Shown in pieces: positions 1-8,115 of a stretch of 10,778 nt of DNA (position 1 is the stretch's first letter; the number at the start of each line of letters is the position of its first letter). The position numbers and the translations under genes are program-made. The notes beneath the pieces are model-generated. The model did no database searches and was not told the DNA's origin. It was given only the letters and a program-made list of their open reading frames with translations. Source of the stretch: Thermoproteota archaeon (GTDB taxonomy: Archaea > Korarchaeota > Korarchaeia > B14-G2); contig QMWA01000043.1 in the NCBI GenBank assembly GCA_003661385.1, positions 1-10,778 of the forward strand, read 5' to 3'.

Positions 1-630
1 ATTTGTGACCACGCAAATAGGCATGTAGCAGAGCCCCAGCTCCCTAGCTAGTGTAGCCTCAGTTGCCATGGTCATCCCAACTAGATCTCCCCCAACTGCT
101 TTCATTGCCCTGATCTCAGCTGGCGTCTCAAACCTACTTCCCTCAGTGCAGCAGTAAACCCCTCCCTCTCTGATGCTCTCACCGGCTTCTTCTGCGGCTT
201 TAGCAGCGGCAGCTCTCAGCTCAGGGCAGAAAATATATGGTGTGCATGTAGCATGTCTGACCCAGCGACCAAGCTCCTTAAGAGGGACTTTTCCATCAAA
301 GTACGTGGGTATCCTTTTTTTAGTGCAGTCTATCATGTCTGATGGGAGAACTATATCTCCAACCTTTAGCTCTGTGTTTATCGCTCCAACGGCGTTTGTG
401 GCGATTATTCTCTCAACTCCTAGCCTGAAGAGAGCTAACATATTGCCCTCATAGTTAACTCTAAATGGGGGTACTTCATGTCTAGCTCCATGCCTGCTTA
501 TGAAGTAAACCTCCCTCCCCTTATGCTCCACTACCCTGACCCTGACAGCCCCGTACTCTGTTATTACAGCGATGCTTCTTCCGCCTAGCAGCTTGTAAAA
601 GCCACTTCCTCCTATAACACCTATCTTCAA
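1..630 (-). CDS. MTAP/PNP-family nucleoside phosphorylase, 3' end cut by window edge
   Basis: The visible 210 residues are a family 2 purine nucleoside phosphorylase, which cleaves methylthioadenosine, methylthioinosine or inosine with phosphate. Seen: phosphate-binding GGSGFY at residues 7-12, SRHG near 45, NAVGAI near 79, CTEGSRFETPAEIR near 161 and an LARELGL helix near 194. The reading runs off the left edge at a VVTN motif; family members are usually about 250-270 residues, so some 50 are missing. The TTG start at 630 is chosen because it gives the family N-terminus (KIGVIGGSG) and follows a GGTG site at 636-639 by 5 nt; an in-frame GTG at 634-636 is the alternative. It begins 9 nt after the GAPDH stop, so the two are probably cotranscribed. 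Asn replaces the Asp of adenine-specific enzymes in the base pocket, which favours 6-oxopurine substrates. The usual Pro of GMTxxPE is Thr (GMTMATE). Family certain, substrate inferred. Confidence 0.92.
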   Translation of the reverse strand, partial: MKIGVIGGSGFYKLLGGRSIAVITEYGAVRVRVVEHKGREVYFISRHGARHEVPPFRVNYEGNMLALFRLGVERIIATNAVGAINTELKVGDIVLPSDMIDCTKKRIPTYFDGKVPLKELGRWVRHATCTPYIFCPELRAAAAKAAEEAGESIREGGVYCCTEGSRFETPAEIRAMKAVGGDLVGMTMATEATLARELGLCYMPICVVTN

Positions 631-1847: not shown

Positions 1848-3506
1848 ATGGCTCTTGCAACCCTAGGAGGCCAGCCTGTCCTAATTCTTAAGGAGGGTAC
1901 ACAGAGAACTAGAGGCGAGGAAGCGAGGCGACTGAATATAATGGCCGCCAGAGCAGTAGCTGAAGCCATAAGAACAACCCTAGGCCCTAAGGGAATGGAC
2001 AAGATGATCGTAGACACCCTAGGTGACATAACGATATCCAATGACGGCGCTACCATATTAGATGAGATGGAAGTAAGACATCCTGCAGCAAAGATGATGG
2101 TGGACCTAGCTAAGGCACAGGACCATGAAGTTGGTGACGGCACAACGACCACAGTGGTCATAGCAGGAGCACTACTAGCTGAAGCAGATAGGCTGCTAAG
2201 AAAAGACGTGCACCCGATGGTCATAGTAAATGGGTTCAAGAGGGGAGTAGAGGAGGCAAAAAGGGTCCTAGATGAGATATCCGAGAAAATCGACGTCAAA
2301 AATGATGAGATACTGGTAAGAGCGGCGGAAACAGCCATGAGAAGCAAGGCAATAGCAGGTGAGCGAAGGTACCTAGCTGAGATAGCAGTCAAAGCAGTCA
2401 AGAGGGTGGCAGAGGAAAGAGACGGAAAGTACTTCATAGACATAGACAGGGTTAAGATACTGAAGAAGCAGGGCAAAAGCCTAAGGGAGACAGAGTACGT
2501 AGAGGGCATAGTGATAGACAAGGAAGTAGTCCACAGCGGGATGCCAAAGAGGATAAAGGAAGCCAAGATAGCCTTGCTAGGGTGCCCGCTAGAGATAGAG
2601 AAGACGGAGTTTAGTGCTGAAGTAAGGATAACAGACCCAGAGCAGATGATGAGGTTCATAGAAGAGGAAACTAACATCCTAAAGGACATGGTTGACAAGA
2701 TTAGGTCGGTTGGAGCAAATGTGGTCTTCTGCCAGAAAGGCATAGACGAGATAGCACAGCACTTTCTAGCGAAGTACGGCATACTAGCAGTAAGGAGAAT
2801 CAGCAGCAAGGATATGGAGAAGCTAGCCAAAGCAACAGGCGGCAGGATAGTCACAAGCCTAGAGGATCTCAAGCCAGAAAGCCTAGGATATGCAGAGCTT
2901 GTAGAAGAGAGGAAGATAGGAGAGGATAAAATGGTTTACGTAGAGGGCTGCAAGGATCCAAGAGCAGTCACAGTAGTCCTGAGAGGAGGAGCTGAGCTCC
3001 TGGTAGAAGAGGCTGAAAGAGGTTTTCACGACGCCCTATGTGTAGCCAAGACCCTCCTAGAGGATCCAAGGATAGTCTACGGTGGAGGAGCAGTCGAGAT
3101 GAAGGTTGCGACAGCCGTAAGGGAGTATGCTGCAAAAATGGGCGGTAAGGAAAGGCTTGCAGTAGAGGCTTTTGCAGACGCAATCGAGAGCATACCAAGT
3201 GCACTAGCTCAGAACGCTGGAATGGATCCAGTAGAAACCATACTGGATCTCAGAGCAAAGCACGAGAAAGAAGGTGGATGGTGGGGAGTCAACGTACTAG
3301 AGAGCAAGATATCAGATATGAAGGAGCTGAATGTAATAGAGCCGACCAAAGTGAAGCTGAACGCCATAGTAGCAGCAGCTGAAACAGCACAGACGATAAT
3401 AAGGATAGACGATGTGATAGCAGCCAAACCATTCGAGAAAGAGGAGAAGAAGGAGGGCAAAGAAGAGGAGGAGAAGCCTGAAAGCGAGTTCAGCAGCGAG
3501 TTCTAG
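1848..3506 (+). CDS. ths: Thermosome subunit (group II chaperonin)
   Basis: This is a subunit of the double-ring ATP-driven chaperonin that folds cytosolic proteins in archaea. The 552-residue length is typical. Equatorial ATP-binding motifs are clear: TLGPKG (44-49), DGATIL (66-71), GDGTTTTVV (96-104) and GGGAVE (412-417). The apical domain with its built-in helical lid lies between, roughly residues 210-370. The C-terminal tail is about 25 residues rich in Glu and Lys and ends FSSEF; many archaeal subunits instead end in Gly/Met repeats. The ATG follows a poly-G site, and the N-terminal GGQPVLILKEG matches the family. A TATA-like box and an inverted repeat upstream suggest regulated transcription. 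The next gene starts 8 nt after the stop. Whether it is the alpha, beta or another paralogue cannot be decided from one window. Confidence 0.98.
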   Translation: MALATLGGQPVLILKEGTQRTRGEEARRLNIMAARAVAEAIRTTLGPKGMDKMIVDTLGDITISNDGATILDEMEVRHPAAKMMVDLAKAQDHEVGDGTTTTVVIAGALLAEADRLLRKDVHPMVIVNGFKRGVEEAKRVLDEISEKIDVKNDEILVRAAETAMRSKAIAGERRYLAEIAVKAVKRVAEERDGKYFIDIDRVKILKKQGKSLRETEYVEGIVIDKEVVHSGMPKRIKEAKIALLGCPLEIEKTEFSAEVRITDPEQMMRFIEEETNILKDMVDKIRSVGANVVFCQKGIDEIAQHFLAKYGILAVRRISSKDMEKLAKATGGRIVTSLEDLKPESLGYAELVEERKIGEDKMVYVEGCKDPRAVTVVLRGGAELLVEEAERGFHDALCVAKTLLEDPRIVYGGGAVEMKVATAVREYAAKMGGKERLAVEAFADAIESIPSALAQNAGMDPVETILDLRAKHEKEGGWWGVNVLESKISDMKELNVIEPTKVKLNAIVAAAETAQTIIRIDDVIAAKPFEKEEKKEGKEEEEKPESEFSSEF

Positions 3507-3514
3507 GGTTACGC

Positions 3515-4354
3515 TTGAAGAAACCTAACATAGTTGACATCATAATCCTACTCTTCGTCCTTTCCCTACCAATTTTTATCTTAGCTAGAAAGTACTCCCC
3601 GCGAGAGGAGGCTCGTGAGTTCTCTGGGCTCGACATAATCAGGGTCTGTGAGGAGTACAACAGGATATCTGCAAAGGGATATGTTGTAGTAGCGAGAGTA
3701 GAAGGGAAGTGGACCTTCAACTCGACACCAGTTACCATAGAGGGTGTCGTAGTAAAAGCCGACAAGGCAAGGCTTTACATCGCTAAGAACAGCCTCCTGC
3801 TGTCGATAGGAGGTCCGATGGCAGATGTAGAGCACATAGCAGCATCCAAAATAACACTGCTTCCTCAGTCAAGGTCAGTCATAGTATTAAGGACAAAGCC
3901 GCTTAAAGCTAGTAGCTTAGAGGAATTTTCCTCAATAGTCTACAGTATAGCAGAGTCTGCAGCAGGAGAATATGGTGTAGCAACCATAAGAGTAGCTGGT
4001 AGACTGCTCCTGAGATGCAATATGTCACGAGGAAGCCCGGTATTCCAGAAGATCTGGCTTGACACCATATCTAGAATCAAGTTCGGGATAGTGTACCTCA
4101 TATTAGAAGAAGGCTATCTTGAACTTAGCCTATATGGAGCGGGCTGGAGGCCTGAGGACCTCTCAGTCTTCACCTCGATACTCTCACAGAACGGAGTTGC
4201 TGTTGATGCAGTCATAACACCATCTCTAACCATAATGGTTGGAACTGAAAGGAGCTTAGCTGAGCCAGGCGCAGAGAAGTCTGTGAAGGCAAACTTAGCA
4301 AAGCTAGTACACTTGATTGAAACTGAGAAAGTAACAATATCCCCCTATCCATAG
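3515..4354 (+). CDS. Single-anchor membrane protein with extracellular domain, function unknown
   Basis: I do not recognise this 279-residue protein. A hydrophobic segment at residues 7-24, preceded by two Lys and followed by Arg/Lys, looks like an uncleaved signal anchor, placing residues from about 26 outside the membrane. The remainder alternates short hydrophobic strands with polar residues, including a Val-rich stretch (VEGKWTFNSTPVTIEGVVVKADKARLYI, split here as strands near residues 66-93), suggesting a beta-rich fold; it has no metal-binding or catalytic motif I can name. The only early in-frame start is TTG at 3515, with a weak AGGGT site overlapping the thermosome stop. It lies 8 nt after the thermosome and 10 nt before the polymerase-like gene, so the three are probably one transcript. 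With one anchor rather than two, it is not a typical Wzz chain-length regulator. It may assist its membrane neighbour, but that rests on position alone. Confidence 0.75.
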   Translation: MKKPNIVDIIILLFVLSLPIFILARKYSPREEAREFSGLDIIRVCEEYNRISAKGYVVVARVEGKWTFNSTPVTIEGVVVKADKARLYIAKNSLLLSIGGPMADVEHIAASKITLLPQSRSVIVLRTKPLKASSLEEFSSIVYSIAESAAGEYGVATIRVAGRLLLRCNMSRGSPVFQKIWLDTISRIKFGIVYLILEEGYLELSLYGAGWRPEDLSVFTSILSQNGVAVDAVITPSLTIMVGTERSLAEPGAEKSVKANLAKLVHLIETEKVTISPYP

Positions 4355-4364
4355 GTGTCCGTGG

Positions 4365-5726
4365 TTGTGGGCTTATTTGTCAAGGAAGTACAGAAGCAGC
4401 CTAACCAGAAGGCTAGCTGATAGGGCATCTACTGCGATAAAGAGGGCTGTAAGGGGGAGCCTTATAGTAAACTCAGCTCTCCGCATGAAGCTGCCTACAC
4501 CAGCTCTCGGCTTGAGCAGCTCTAAGACGATCCAGCTTGCCAGCAAGTTAAGCGCTTCTGTCTGGTTAAGGCTTGATTCTCGTCTACTTGCCTTAGGTAG
4601 GCGCCTAGATAGCATCTTAGACGATTCTATGGCGTTTAAGGCCATAATTAGGTCCCCAGCCATACTCCTGATGCTCCTCTTCCTGTACTTTGCCTCATCA
4701 AGAGCGGTGGTTTCAGCTAGAACTCTAGTAGTTCTCCTAACCTCAATGCTTGCATATCTAGTTGGTGTTATAGCTGGTAGGCTAGAGTGCTCCAAGTCTA
4801 AGATCACTGTTGCAGAGAGCTCTGCTCCACTATACGTCGGTGGTGTAATGTACTTGCTTGGAGTAGTTTTTCTTGCTAAGCAGCTCACCTCCATTGGCGG
4901 CCTTCCTATTCTAAGTGAAGAGCTGCGTAGGAAGCTCGTTTGCTCCCTGACGTATGTAGCATGGAGCATAGCTCCTGCCTCAGTTATCATATCTCCATGG
5001 ATACATTCTGGGAGGTCTAGCGTAGACAGGCTGAAGTTCCTTGTCTTCTCATCTATATCCGTTGCTATGGTGGCTTTACTGGGGTATAGGACGAGTACAA
5101 TAGCTGCAATACTGGGTTTAGCCCTATATGCCTTCTACACGAGGCTAGCTACCTCACTTGACCTTCTGCTGACTTTCATAGCTGTATTAGGAGCTTACAT
5201 TGGGATTGGTGTTGTGAGATATGAGCTGAGAGGGTTGATAGACCCATTTTACACGGCCCTTTCAAGACCAACTTTGACTGTGAGCAATTTTGACATTCTT
5301 ATGCAGAAATACGGTTTTGCTCCTCTCTCACATGGCTTCATACACATCTCAGCCTTCACCTCTGCACTCCCTTTCCTACCTGGCTCCAAGATAGGACCTA
5401 GGAGGATAATAGGGTCTCTAGTTGGTGTGAGGGGAGAGGTCTCGACTACAGCTACAGTATTCGCGCCTCTTATCCTGGACTTCGGCCTTCTGGGCTGCAT
5501 TCTAGCTTCACTGCTATGTGGATTTGTGATTTCACTGCTATTCTACTCAAGGAGTGAAAGCGAGCTTGCTGACAGAGTCAAATACAGCCTCTATTGTGTG
5601 CTCATAATGTACCTGGCGCCCTCGATTGAAAGTGGTCTACTAGACTTCAATGTCTATGTCTACATGGGGATAGCTTTAATGCTGTACTTTCTCATCTCAC
5701 AGCCTTCTCAGAGCTCCACTCTTTAA
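4365..5726 (+). CDS. Polytopic membrane protein, probable oligosaccharide repeat unit polymerase (Wzy-like)
   Basis: The 453-residue protein has an Arg-rich soluble N-terminus of about 95 residues, then about ten hydrophobic segments, near 97-112, 119-138, 155-171, 192-210, 225-240, 244-258, 264-284, 365-393, 405-420 and 428-445. Between segments seven and eight lies a long loop. GYRTS (240-244), the GPRRIIG loop near 344-350 and FAPLILDFGLLG (366-377) resemble oligosaccharide repeat unit polymerases, which join lipid-linked sugar units on the outer membrane face. No flippase or glycosyltransferase gene is nearby, so the pathway is unsupported by context. The TTG at 4365 follows AGGTG (4353-4357) with 7 nt spacing, overlapping the previous stop. 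The Arg-rich N-terminal extension is unusual for the family. Its last 30 bp overlap the convergent mvhD gene. Another multi-pass membrane family is possible. Confidence 0.65.
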   Translation: MWAYLSRKYRSSLTRRLADRASTAIKRAVRGSLIVNSALRMKLPTPALGLSSSKTIQLASKLSASVWLRLDSRLLALGRRLDSILDDSMAFKAIIRSPAILLMLLFLYFASSRAVVSARTLVVLLTSMLAYLVGVIAGRLECSKSKITVAESSAPLYVGGVMYLLGVVFLAKQLTSIGGLPILSEELRRKLVCSLTYVAWSIAPASVIISPWIHSGRSSVDRLKFLVFSSISVAMVALLGYRTSTIAAILGLALYAFYTRLATSLDLLLTFIAVLGAYIGIGVVRYELRGLIDPFYTALSRPTLTVSNFDILMQKYGFAPLSHGFIHISAFTSALPFLPGSKIGPRRIIGSLVGVRGEVSTTATVFAPLILDFGLLGCILASLLCGFVISLLFYSRSESELADRVKYSLYCVLIMYLAPSIESGLLDFNVYVYMGIALMLYFLISQPSQSSTL

Positions 5727-6125
5727 TGGGCTAGGCCCAAGCTTCCTTATCTGCTCAGTGAACTCCTTGACTATCTCGGCGAATCTCCCCCCCTCTGCTG
5801 CTGAAATCCACTCAAGTCTGAGTCTCTCTGGCTCAATGCCCATCTCCCTCAGCAGCCTTCTCAAGAGCAGGAATCTCCTAAGAGCCATGTAGTTCCCACG
5901 CAAGTAGTGGCAGTCTCCCGGGTGGCAGCCACCGATGAGTACTCCATCAGCCCCATTCTTAAATGCCTCCAATATGAACTCTGGACTCACCCTTCCACTG
6001 CACATCACTCTTATCAGCCTAATAGAAGGTGGATATTGTACTCTACTGGTTCCAGCTAGATCTGCTCCTGCATAGGTACACCAGTTACATGTGAAGCCTA
6101 TTATCAGAGGCTTAAACTCCTTCAT
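5697..6125 (-). CDS. mvhD: MvhD-family [2Fe-2S] subunit (F420-non-reducing hydrogenase delta subunit-like)
   Basis: MvhD is a small iron-sulfur protein that passes electrons between a partner such as hydrogenase or formate dehydrogenase and the heterodisulfide reductase flavoprotein HdrA. The 142 residues show the family cysteines C13 and C16 (FTCNWCTY), C42 (MCSGR), and C67 and C72 (GGCHPGDCHY), which include the [2Fe-2S] ligands. Length is typical. The ATG is one nucleotide after the hdrA stop, and its AGGTGG binding site (6130-6135) lies in the last hdrA codons, so translation is probably coupled. No MvhA or MvhG hydrogenase gene is in view, so the electron donor is unknown. The 3' end overlaps the convergent membrane gene by 30 bp. 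Confidence 0.93.
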   Translation of the reverse strand: MKEFKPLIIGFTCNWCTYAGADLAGTSRVQYPPSIRLIRVMCSGRVSPEFILEAFKNGADGVLIGGCHPGDCHYLRGNYMALRRFLLLRRLLREMGIEPERLRLEWISAAEGGRFAEIVKEFTEQIRKLGPSPLKSGALRRL

Positions 6126-6126
6126 T

Positions 6127-8115
6127 TTACCACCTTCCCACTGTTAGCGCTCTTATCTGAGCTAGTATCTGAGTGTCGGTAAAGTGCTTCATTGTTATGG
6201 CACCAGATGGGCAAGCTCCGCTACAGGCACCACACCCCTGGCATATGGCCTCATGTACCCTGGCTTTAGCTCCCCTCTCGGTTTCAACGACCGCTATAGC
6301 CCCATACGCGCATATGCTCTCACATATCCTGCAGCCGCCACAGAGCTCTTCGTTCACCTGGGCAGTTATAGGCTCCACCACTACTTTCCCTGCTGACAGT
6401 GGTATGGAGGCCTGCGCTGCTGCTGCGCTAGCTTGAGCAACCGTATCTGGTATGTCCTTAGGCCCTTGTGCTGTCCCACACAGGTATATCCCTGGGACAT
6501 GTGTTTCAACAGGTCTAAGCTTAGGGTGGGCTTCCAGGAAGAAGCCATCCGGGCTCCTAGATATCTTTAGCGCTTTCTGCAGGTGTTCAGCATCTGATGG
6601 CGGAGTTAGCCCTGCAGCTAACACAACCATGTCAAATTCCATCTCAACTATCTCTCCTGAAAGAGTATCCTCACACCTAACCACCAGGTTGTGTGTATCT
6701 GGGTTCTCAAGTACCTTAGAGACTCTCCCTCTTATGAATCGGACCCCCTCCTCCTGAACTCTCCTATAGAACTCCTCATATCCCTTACCAAAGCTCCTCA
6801 AATCCATGTAGAACACTACAACCTCAGTACTCGGAGACTTCTCCTTAAGCTGATGTGCATGCTTTAGGGTAGCCATGCAGCATATCCTAGAGCAGTACTC
6901 CCTGGCGCTCACATTCCTAGACCCTACACACTGTATGAAGGCAACTCTCCTCGGAGGCCTACCGTCAGACGGCCTCAGGACTACTCCACCAGTTGGACCT
7001 GCTGCGTTAACAAGCCGCTCGAACTCAAGGTTTGTTATTACGTTTGGGTATCTTCCGTATCCGTATTCTCTTGCTTTTGTTGGGTCGTATAGGTCGAATC
7101 CTGTTGCTACTATTATGGCACCTACATCGAGCTCAACCTCCTCAGGCTTCATATTGAAGTCGATAGCATCCCTACCCTGCTCCCTACAAGCCTCAACACA
7201 GCTCTCACACTCAATACAGCTATCCTTGTCTATGAGAAATACGGATGGTACAGCCTGTGGAAACGGGCGGTATATTGCTTTTCTTACTCCTAGTCCCATG
7301 TCCCATTCGTTTGGTACTTCTACTGGGCATACTTCTGTGCATGCTCCGCATGCGTTGCATTCTTCTTCTTTGACATACCTCGGCTTCTTCAGGACCTTCA
7401 CTTTGAAGTTCCCTATGAACCCATCTACACTAGTAACCTCACTATAGCTCAGCAGCTCAATATTAGGATGCCTAGCAACATCAACCATCTTAGGGCCTAG
7501 AATGCATATTGAGCAGTCTAGTGTTGGGAATGTTTTGTCTAGTAGTGCCATTTTTCCTCCTATTGTGGGGGACTTCTCAACCATGTACACCTTAAAGCCC
7601 ATATCAGCTAGGTCTAGAGCTGCCTGTATCCCTGCTACACCCCCTCCTATCACCATGGCTTTAGGAGTGACTGGAACCTCTATGGTTTCTAGAGGCTGAA
7701 GCCTGCGGGCCTTCTCCACCGCCATCCGAACCATGTCTATAGCTTTCTCGTTAGCAGCCTCACGCTGATGTGTGTGACACCAGCTACACATCTCTCTTAT
7801 GTTAGCCATCTCGAACAGGTAGGGATTGAGTCCTGCTTCAGCAATGCACTTCCTGAAGGTAGGCTCATGCATCCTAGGGGAGCAAGCTGCGACGACAACT
7901 CTGTTTAGATTGTACTTTCTTATGTCCTCTTTGATGAGCTCTTGCCCTGGATCTGAGCACATGTACCTGTAGTCCTTGGAGACAACGACACCAGGGTAGT
8001 CCTTAAACGCCTCAGCAACCTTCTCACAATCGATAACACCAGCGATATTCAGCCCACAGTGACAGATGTAGACTCCTATGCGAGGGGAGTCCTCGTGATT
8101 AGTGCCCTGAGCCAA
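6127..8115 (-). CDS. hdrA: HdrA-like flavoprotein with iron-sulfur clusters (heterodisulfide reductase subunit A family)
   Basis: HdrA carries the FAD at which electrons are bifurcated or confurcated in Hdr complexes. This 662-residue protein is full length. In order: an N-terminal domain with CHCG (18-21), C53, C78 and CSWCH (110-114); the FAD dinucleotide motif [18 protein letters not shown] (157-174); the HdrA-specific [13 protein letters not shown] (198-210); an inserted ferredoxin domain (C253, C256, C259, C263, then C300, C303, C306, C310); a second cysteine set at 396-413; a C-terminal FAD motif near 544-560; and a final ferredoxin (C592-C602 and C625-C635). TTG at 8115 is chosen because GAGGTGA (8120-8126) precedes it by 4 nt. 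mvhD follows one nucleotide later. HdrB and HdrC are absent from the window, so the acceptor is unknown; methanogenesis is not implied. Codon usage is mosaic across residues 184-362. Confidence 0.96.

Follow-up and report, generated by a model that had tools for sequence, protein, structure and literature searches.

Strand-polarised patterns in DNA have been described at different scales. In yeast, single strands that become exposed when DNA recombines or breaks are mended gather strand-coordinated mutations that switch at breaks (PMC6786661; PMC3521656). The strand-coordinated and strand-switching clusters of yeast and cancer have been linked to recombination intermediates (PMC6786661; PMC3521656). 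Replication-type asymmetry, i.e., GC, AT and keto skew, acts over replichores. Paralogue gene conversion leaves as its hallmark a near-identical tract in two copies with diverged flanks. No description was found in the open-access literature of an intragenic alternation of codon sets of the kind described here for an archaeal hdrA gene.

The gene lies in a stretch of 10,778 nucleotides, referred to as the window, which is contig 43 (C43) of an archaeal MAG of 1.74 Mb that is fragmented into 206 contigs and contains many hdrA copies. From this genome, a sample of ~0.89 Mb of contig stretches was analysed, partly picked for A/C runs. The best NCBIfam match of the window HdrA is HdrA2 (NF040770; E 2e-301). 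Its score of 1002 bits is under the curated cut-off of 1100 bits, because the MvhD domain sits in a separate gene. On the other strand, positions 4365-5726 (+) are predicted to encode an O-antigen-polymerase-like membrane protein (PF01901), with a TrmB-regulator-like ORF on one side and the hdrA operon on the other. The coordinates of all features are listed in Table 1.

Table 1. Features of the window and comparable tracts on other contigs and in another genome.
Feature	Location	Strand	Remarks
hdrA (HdrA2-like heterodisulfide reductase subunit A)	6127..8115	-	TTG start, 662 aa
Block 1, residues 184-204	7504..7566	-	A/C-ending one-codon rule
G/T-ending stretch, residues 205-247	7375..7503	-	separates blocks 1 and 2; strongest at 7429-7494
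Block 2, residues 249-282	7270..7371	-	A/C-ending one-codon rule; first ferredoxin motif
G/T-ending stretch, residues 300-328	7132..7218	-	second ferredoxin motif
Block 3, residues 334-362	7030..7116	-	A/C-ending one-codon rule
Junction of ancestries in the assembled gene	7030..7033		residues to 361 group with L047-type, downstream with L107-type hdrA
Tract 99.4% identical to C193 (paralogous hdrA, same genome)	7033..7376	-	ends at block 3
Tract ~97% identical to C188 (same genome)	7511..7613	-	C188 ends here
MvhD-like iron-sulphur subunit, separate gene	5697..6125	-	arrangement as in L107/L054-type loci
Kilobase A/C-strand-bias patches	L218 (C76) 800-2000, 6500-7900; L216 (C50) 3600-4860; L237 (C119) 2681-5300; L241 (C177)		independent of gene direction
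Methylmalonyl-CoA mutase block mosaic, A/C and G/T	L215 (C12 end) 1549-2589; L147 (C21) 1-336		flip at one codon border, GAC to GAG
Genes of G038 with almost only G/T-ending codons	L259 9417-10769; L260 9825-10262		thioredoxin, helix-turn-helix protein, ferritin-like gene

Codon blocks in hdrA

A first-pass annotation had described three segments of hdrA that use almost only A- or C-ending codons. This is borne out, and the pattern is stronger than claimed: in blocks 1-3, a single codon per amino acid is used in all 80 testable codons, following the rule of A wherever possible and C elsewhere (the A/C rule). With the genome's own codon usage as null, the log10 P of such adherence is -35, i.e., ~1e-35. 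At the silent sites of these blocks, four-fold sites are A in 38/38 cases, two-fold Y sites are C in 22/22 and two-fold R sites are A in 15/15. The pure A/C-ending runs extend over 23, 36 and 30 codons, and A/C-ending codons make up 42% outside of them. In 5000 synonymous shuffles of hdrA, the longest A/C run was 25 codons, with a mean of 9. The codon counts given at first pass were exact (GAA 6/6 and TGC 4/4 in residues 249-282; GAG 7/7 and TGT 4/4 in residues 300-328), and the opposite codon set that was said to separate blocks 2 and 3 is real. A second such stretch, residues 205-247, had not been named. Both stretches use the mirror set, i.e., T wherever possible and G elsewhere (the G/T rule), but with a lower purity than the A/C blocks.

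It had been proposed to check orthologous hdrA genes for the same pattern arising by chance. In a shuffle test, extreme codon runs occurred in 2 of 113 hdrA genes, which are the window hdrA and the copy on contig C193; the codon-block pattern is absent from the 111 other homologues, which rules out a family-wide hdrA signature. A back-translation artefact was also considered, as the A/C rule equals the choice of the alphabetically first codon. It was rejected, since Ser occurs with two codons, TCA and AGC, and no alphabetical rule holds in the G/T blocks.

Conserved FAD and Fe-S motifs fall within blocks 1 and 2, as would be expected if A/C-ending codons were chosen in catalytic motifs because they match tRNAs exactly. 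Such translational selection is very improbable and already largely refuted: the second ferredoxin motif has the opposite codon set, the thermosome and GAPDH genes of this genome favour GAG/AAG, the other hdrA homologues lack the pattern and the bias spans both gene directions as well as intergenic DNA. The complementary composition of the blocks would in principle allow mRNA duplexes between A/C and G/U blocks. However, the duplex energies are no better than those of codon shuffles (z -1.8 to +0.6), and a role of RNA structure has next to no credibility.

Silent-site bias as a property of the local DNA strand

The first-pass annotation dismissed strand bias as an explanation of the switch. 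This is contradicted by the genome, where silent-site bias behaves as a local property of the DNA strand, independent of gene direction. Plus-strand polarity agrees between adjacent genes that are encoded on opposite strands (r 0.46 overall, and 0.36 when this key correlation was redone on contigs not picked for A/C runs; permutation p < 0.001). Intergenic DNA tracks the silent-site polarity as well (r 0.57), and noncoding DNA that shares the bias is exemplified by positions 2341-2600 of contig C142, with an A+C of 0.16-0.29.

The bias additionally forms patches of kilobase size, which are often located at contig ends, extend into intergenic DNA and contain genes including an AbiEi-type antitoxin regulator and the archaeal ATP synthase A/B subunits. 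As the ATP synthase A gene in such a patch is single-copy, the patches look native and not like contamination. In these patches, four-fold A is approximately equal to C, unlike the pure A of the short blocks, so patches and blocks may have different causes.

The mosaic in methylmalonyl-CoA mutase and malic enzyme

The gene of methylmalonyl-CoA mutase (MCM), divided over contigs C12 and C21, contains the same mosaic. A pure A/C-rule run of 50 codons switches at 158/159 into 62 mostly G/T-ending codons. Four-fold sites in the A/C block are A in 35/35 cases, and the adjoining blocks are the T-rich mirror image. Taking the A/C blocks of hdrA and MCM together, the ratio of four-fold A to C amounts to 73:0. 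Codon positions 1 and 2 of MCM shift in A+C by +0.125 in the A/C block and by -0.20 and -0.23 in the G/T blocks; in hdrA, the amino-acid shift matching strand polarity is weak (circular-shift p 0.11). The start of the MCM gene is 98% identical in contig C95, where it has a different context. MCM orthologues of the phylum contain no such codon blocks.

The malic enzyme gene on C142 also switches from A/C to G/T within the gene, with a mosaic that is weaker than those of hdrA and MCM. At ~1.4 kb on this contig (L242 1-3000), still within the gene, the strand polarity is inverted, and it weakens over a distance of kilobases. The inversion resembles a very local replication-origin skew.

Shared tracts and a lineage junction in the assembled gene

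Over positions 7376-7033, the window and the paralogue on C193 differ at 2 of 344 bases, after which identity drops to ~70% past the end of block 3. The near-identical 344 bp with a diverged flank correspond to the hallmark of gene conversion, the simplest explanation according to the first-pass annotation. Exchange or mis-joining with a paralogue is indeed supported by the 99.4% tract and by the trees described below. As a cause of the codon switch, however, conversion falls short, since the tract shared with C193 covers A/C and G/T blocks alike and conversion thus copies the pattern without creating it. The C193 paralogue has the same codon mosaic across blocks 2 and 3, and block 1 recurs on C188. 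That the C193 copy has the same switches argues against conversion or misassembly as their origin. Both contigs terminate inside the shared tract. Comparing the borders of codon blocks and shared tract, only the end of block 3 (7030/7033) coincides, while the others fall inside the tract.

In phylogenetic trees, window residues 12-202 group with the Bathyarchaeota sequences L047/L048/L051/L052, with an unsupported inner node and a support of 0.90 for a wider 14-member clade. Residues 248-361 and C193 join this set as well (0.93), whereas residues 363-640 group with L107 (0.98). The 3' half of C193 belongs with the L047 set (0.95), and the 5' half of C188 with L107/L108 (0.86). The gene order agrees with the trees, as L047 and C193 have hdrA-hdrC-hdrB and L107, L054 and the window have hdrA followed by a separate mvhD. 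The assembled hdrA thus consists of a 5' part and core from one lineage (X) and a 3' part from another (Y). For the gene as assembled, a joining of two hdrA lineages at the end of block 3 (~7033) could be shown. This junction may be a real genomic crossover, but given four flanks around one shared core it is no less probable that the assembler switched phase here. Since the two parts of the window HdrA may stem from different genes, it is unsuitable for use as a natural protein. Neither identities nor trees detect a change in protein ancestry at 7116, 7270, 7371 or 7504. Of the six borders suggested at first pass (7030, 7116, 7270, 7371, 7504 and 7566), only 7030 is a border of ancestry.

Chimeric assembly, the main alternative in the first-pass annotation, would mean that reads from several hdrA genes or species were mixed. 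Contigs C188, C193, C21, C12 and C95 break inside blocks, and the joining of two paralogue lineages at block 3 points in the same direction. In addition, the assembly graph is tangled: many contig pairs have exactly 123 bp in common at their ends (e.g., L152/L161, L153/L164 and L158/L227), which points to an assembly graph of fixed k-mer, and other contig overlaps at ~97% are a sign of strain variation. Mixing may explain the ~7033 junction, but not the pure codon blocks within one lineage. Moreover, the blocks are seen again on other contigs (2 to 4 differences), like blocks occur in MCM and malic enzyme, and a closed genome contains pure G/T-rule tracts. An artefact is therefore a poor candidate for the origin of the blocks.

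Comparable tracts in other genomes

The closed genome, G038, belongs to another archaeal phylum and has a GC content of 36-39%. It contains a tract of 1.35 kb composed of 41% T, 40% G, 13% A and 6% C, and its thioredoxin gene has a pure G/T-rule run of 45 codons. The actin gene of G038 also has strong G/T-type codon usage. In the hdrA gene of L018, AC3 ranges from 0.67 to 0.89 by region. An A/C-coded motif, EIDCIA...IEVKAGKPH(R)K, occurs in three species of the phylum (G000 C107:3303, G026 C3:2314 and G028 C120:10244).

Strongly A/C- or G/T-coded genes and genomes, such as L018 hdrA and the actin, thioredoxin and ferritin-like genes of G038, could in theory have served as donors. Short tracts from A/C-coded and G/T-coded hdrA, either from other species or from paralogues in polarised regions, would then have recombined into a neutral gene, which is in line with the sharp block borders and with hdrA and MCM being multi-copy families. 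Recombination with donors is nevertheless unlikely. It needs two donors of opposite type. No donor was found in ~570 genomes or in viral contigs, and none with block-level identity in the phylum itself, two other phyla (151 and 392 genomes) or 80 GTDB loci. Furthermore, protein ancestry is, as far as detectable, unchanged at the four inner borders mentioned above.

A possible mechanism

The best account, which is put forward tentatively and with less than even confidence, is strand-polarised mutation in a recombination-prone hdrA core, combined with a joining of paralogues X and Y. There would be two hdrA paralogues with a nearly identical central region: X, with an hdrA-hdrC-hdrB operon, lies close to Bathyarchaeota L047, and Y, with a separate mvhD, lies close to L107. 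The codon blocks would represent a strand signature at the DNA level, in which silent sites are depleted of G and T on one strand and of A and C on the other, with the polarised strand alternating block by block. The likely cause would be that single strands exposed in recombination or when replication restarts were damaged again and again (C to T, A to G and G to T), while selection would preserve the protein. The damaged strand would reach T as its end state (four-fold T, Y-site T, R-site G) and the partner strand A (four-fold A, Y-site C, R-site A), and these end states match the two observed codon sets exactly. Conversion between the paralogues may afterwards keep or copy the blocks.

The mosaic is common to gene copies, i.e., hdrA on C43, C193 and C188 and MCM on C21 and C95. 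The location of the hdrA and MCM blocks where gene copies have near-identical DNA suggests that the strands became exposed through recombination. Deamination by itself (C to T, A to G) was rejected, as it predicts similar numbers of four-fold A and C, in contrast to the observed 73:0.

Several observations count against strand mutation. The amino-acid shift in hdrA is weak, and the A:C ratio of the kilobase patches, which differs from that of the blocks, remains unexplained. The five switches in 600 bp exceed the prediction from a single break and resection, and likewise remain unexplained. The sharp switches from A/C to G/T (block 1 to the next stretch, and MCM at 158/159) run opposite to one-break resection. 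The expectation for a bidirectional-resection cluster, a single switch with the damaged top strand 5', failed in hdrA, which has several switches in both directions. A broader generalisation appears rather doubtful: in some thermophilic archaea, recombination between copies of a gene might repeatedly expose defined single strands of 60-250 bp, where strand-specific damage would fix silent sites so that codon choice records the exposed strand.

If the blocks do record single-strand exposure, ordinary genome sequence would reveal recombination sites in unculturable archaea. As a caution, sharp intragenic switches in codon usage need not signal foreign DNA.

Comparison with known systems

The window HdrA resembles HdrA2 in its best match and its neighbouring MvhD-like gene, and differs by a score under the cut-off and by the two lineages joined at residue 362. 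Similar to paralogue gene conversion, two hdrA copies share a near-identical tract with diverged flanks. Replication-type asymmetry likewise yields G/T-rich and A/C-rich strands in genes and intergenic DNA alike, but here polarity changes within one gene or a few kilobases. As in the strand-coordinated clusters of yeast and cancer (PMC6786661; PMC3521656), mutations would follow one strand per tract and may switch at a point. While those clusters are fresh and mostly at C, the silent sites of hdrA are saturated, changes concern all four bases, the protein is preserved and the polarity switches every 60-110 bp.
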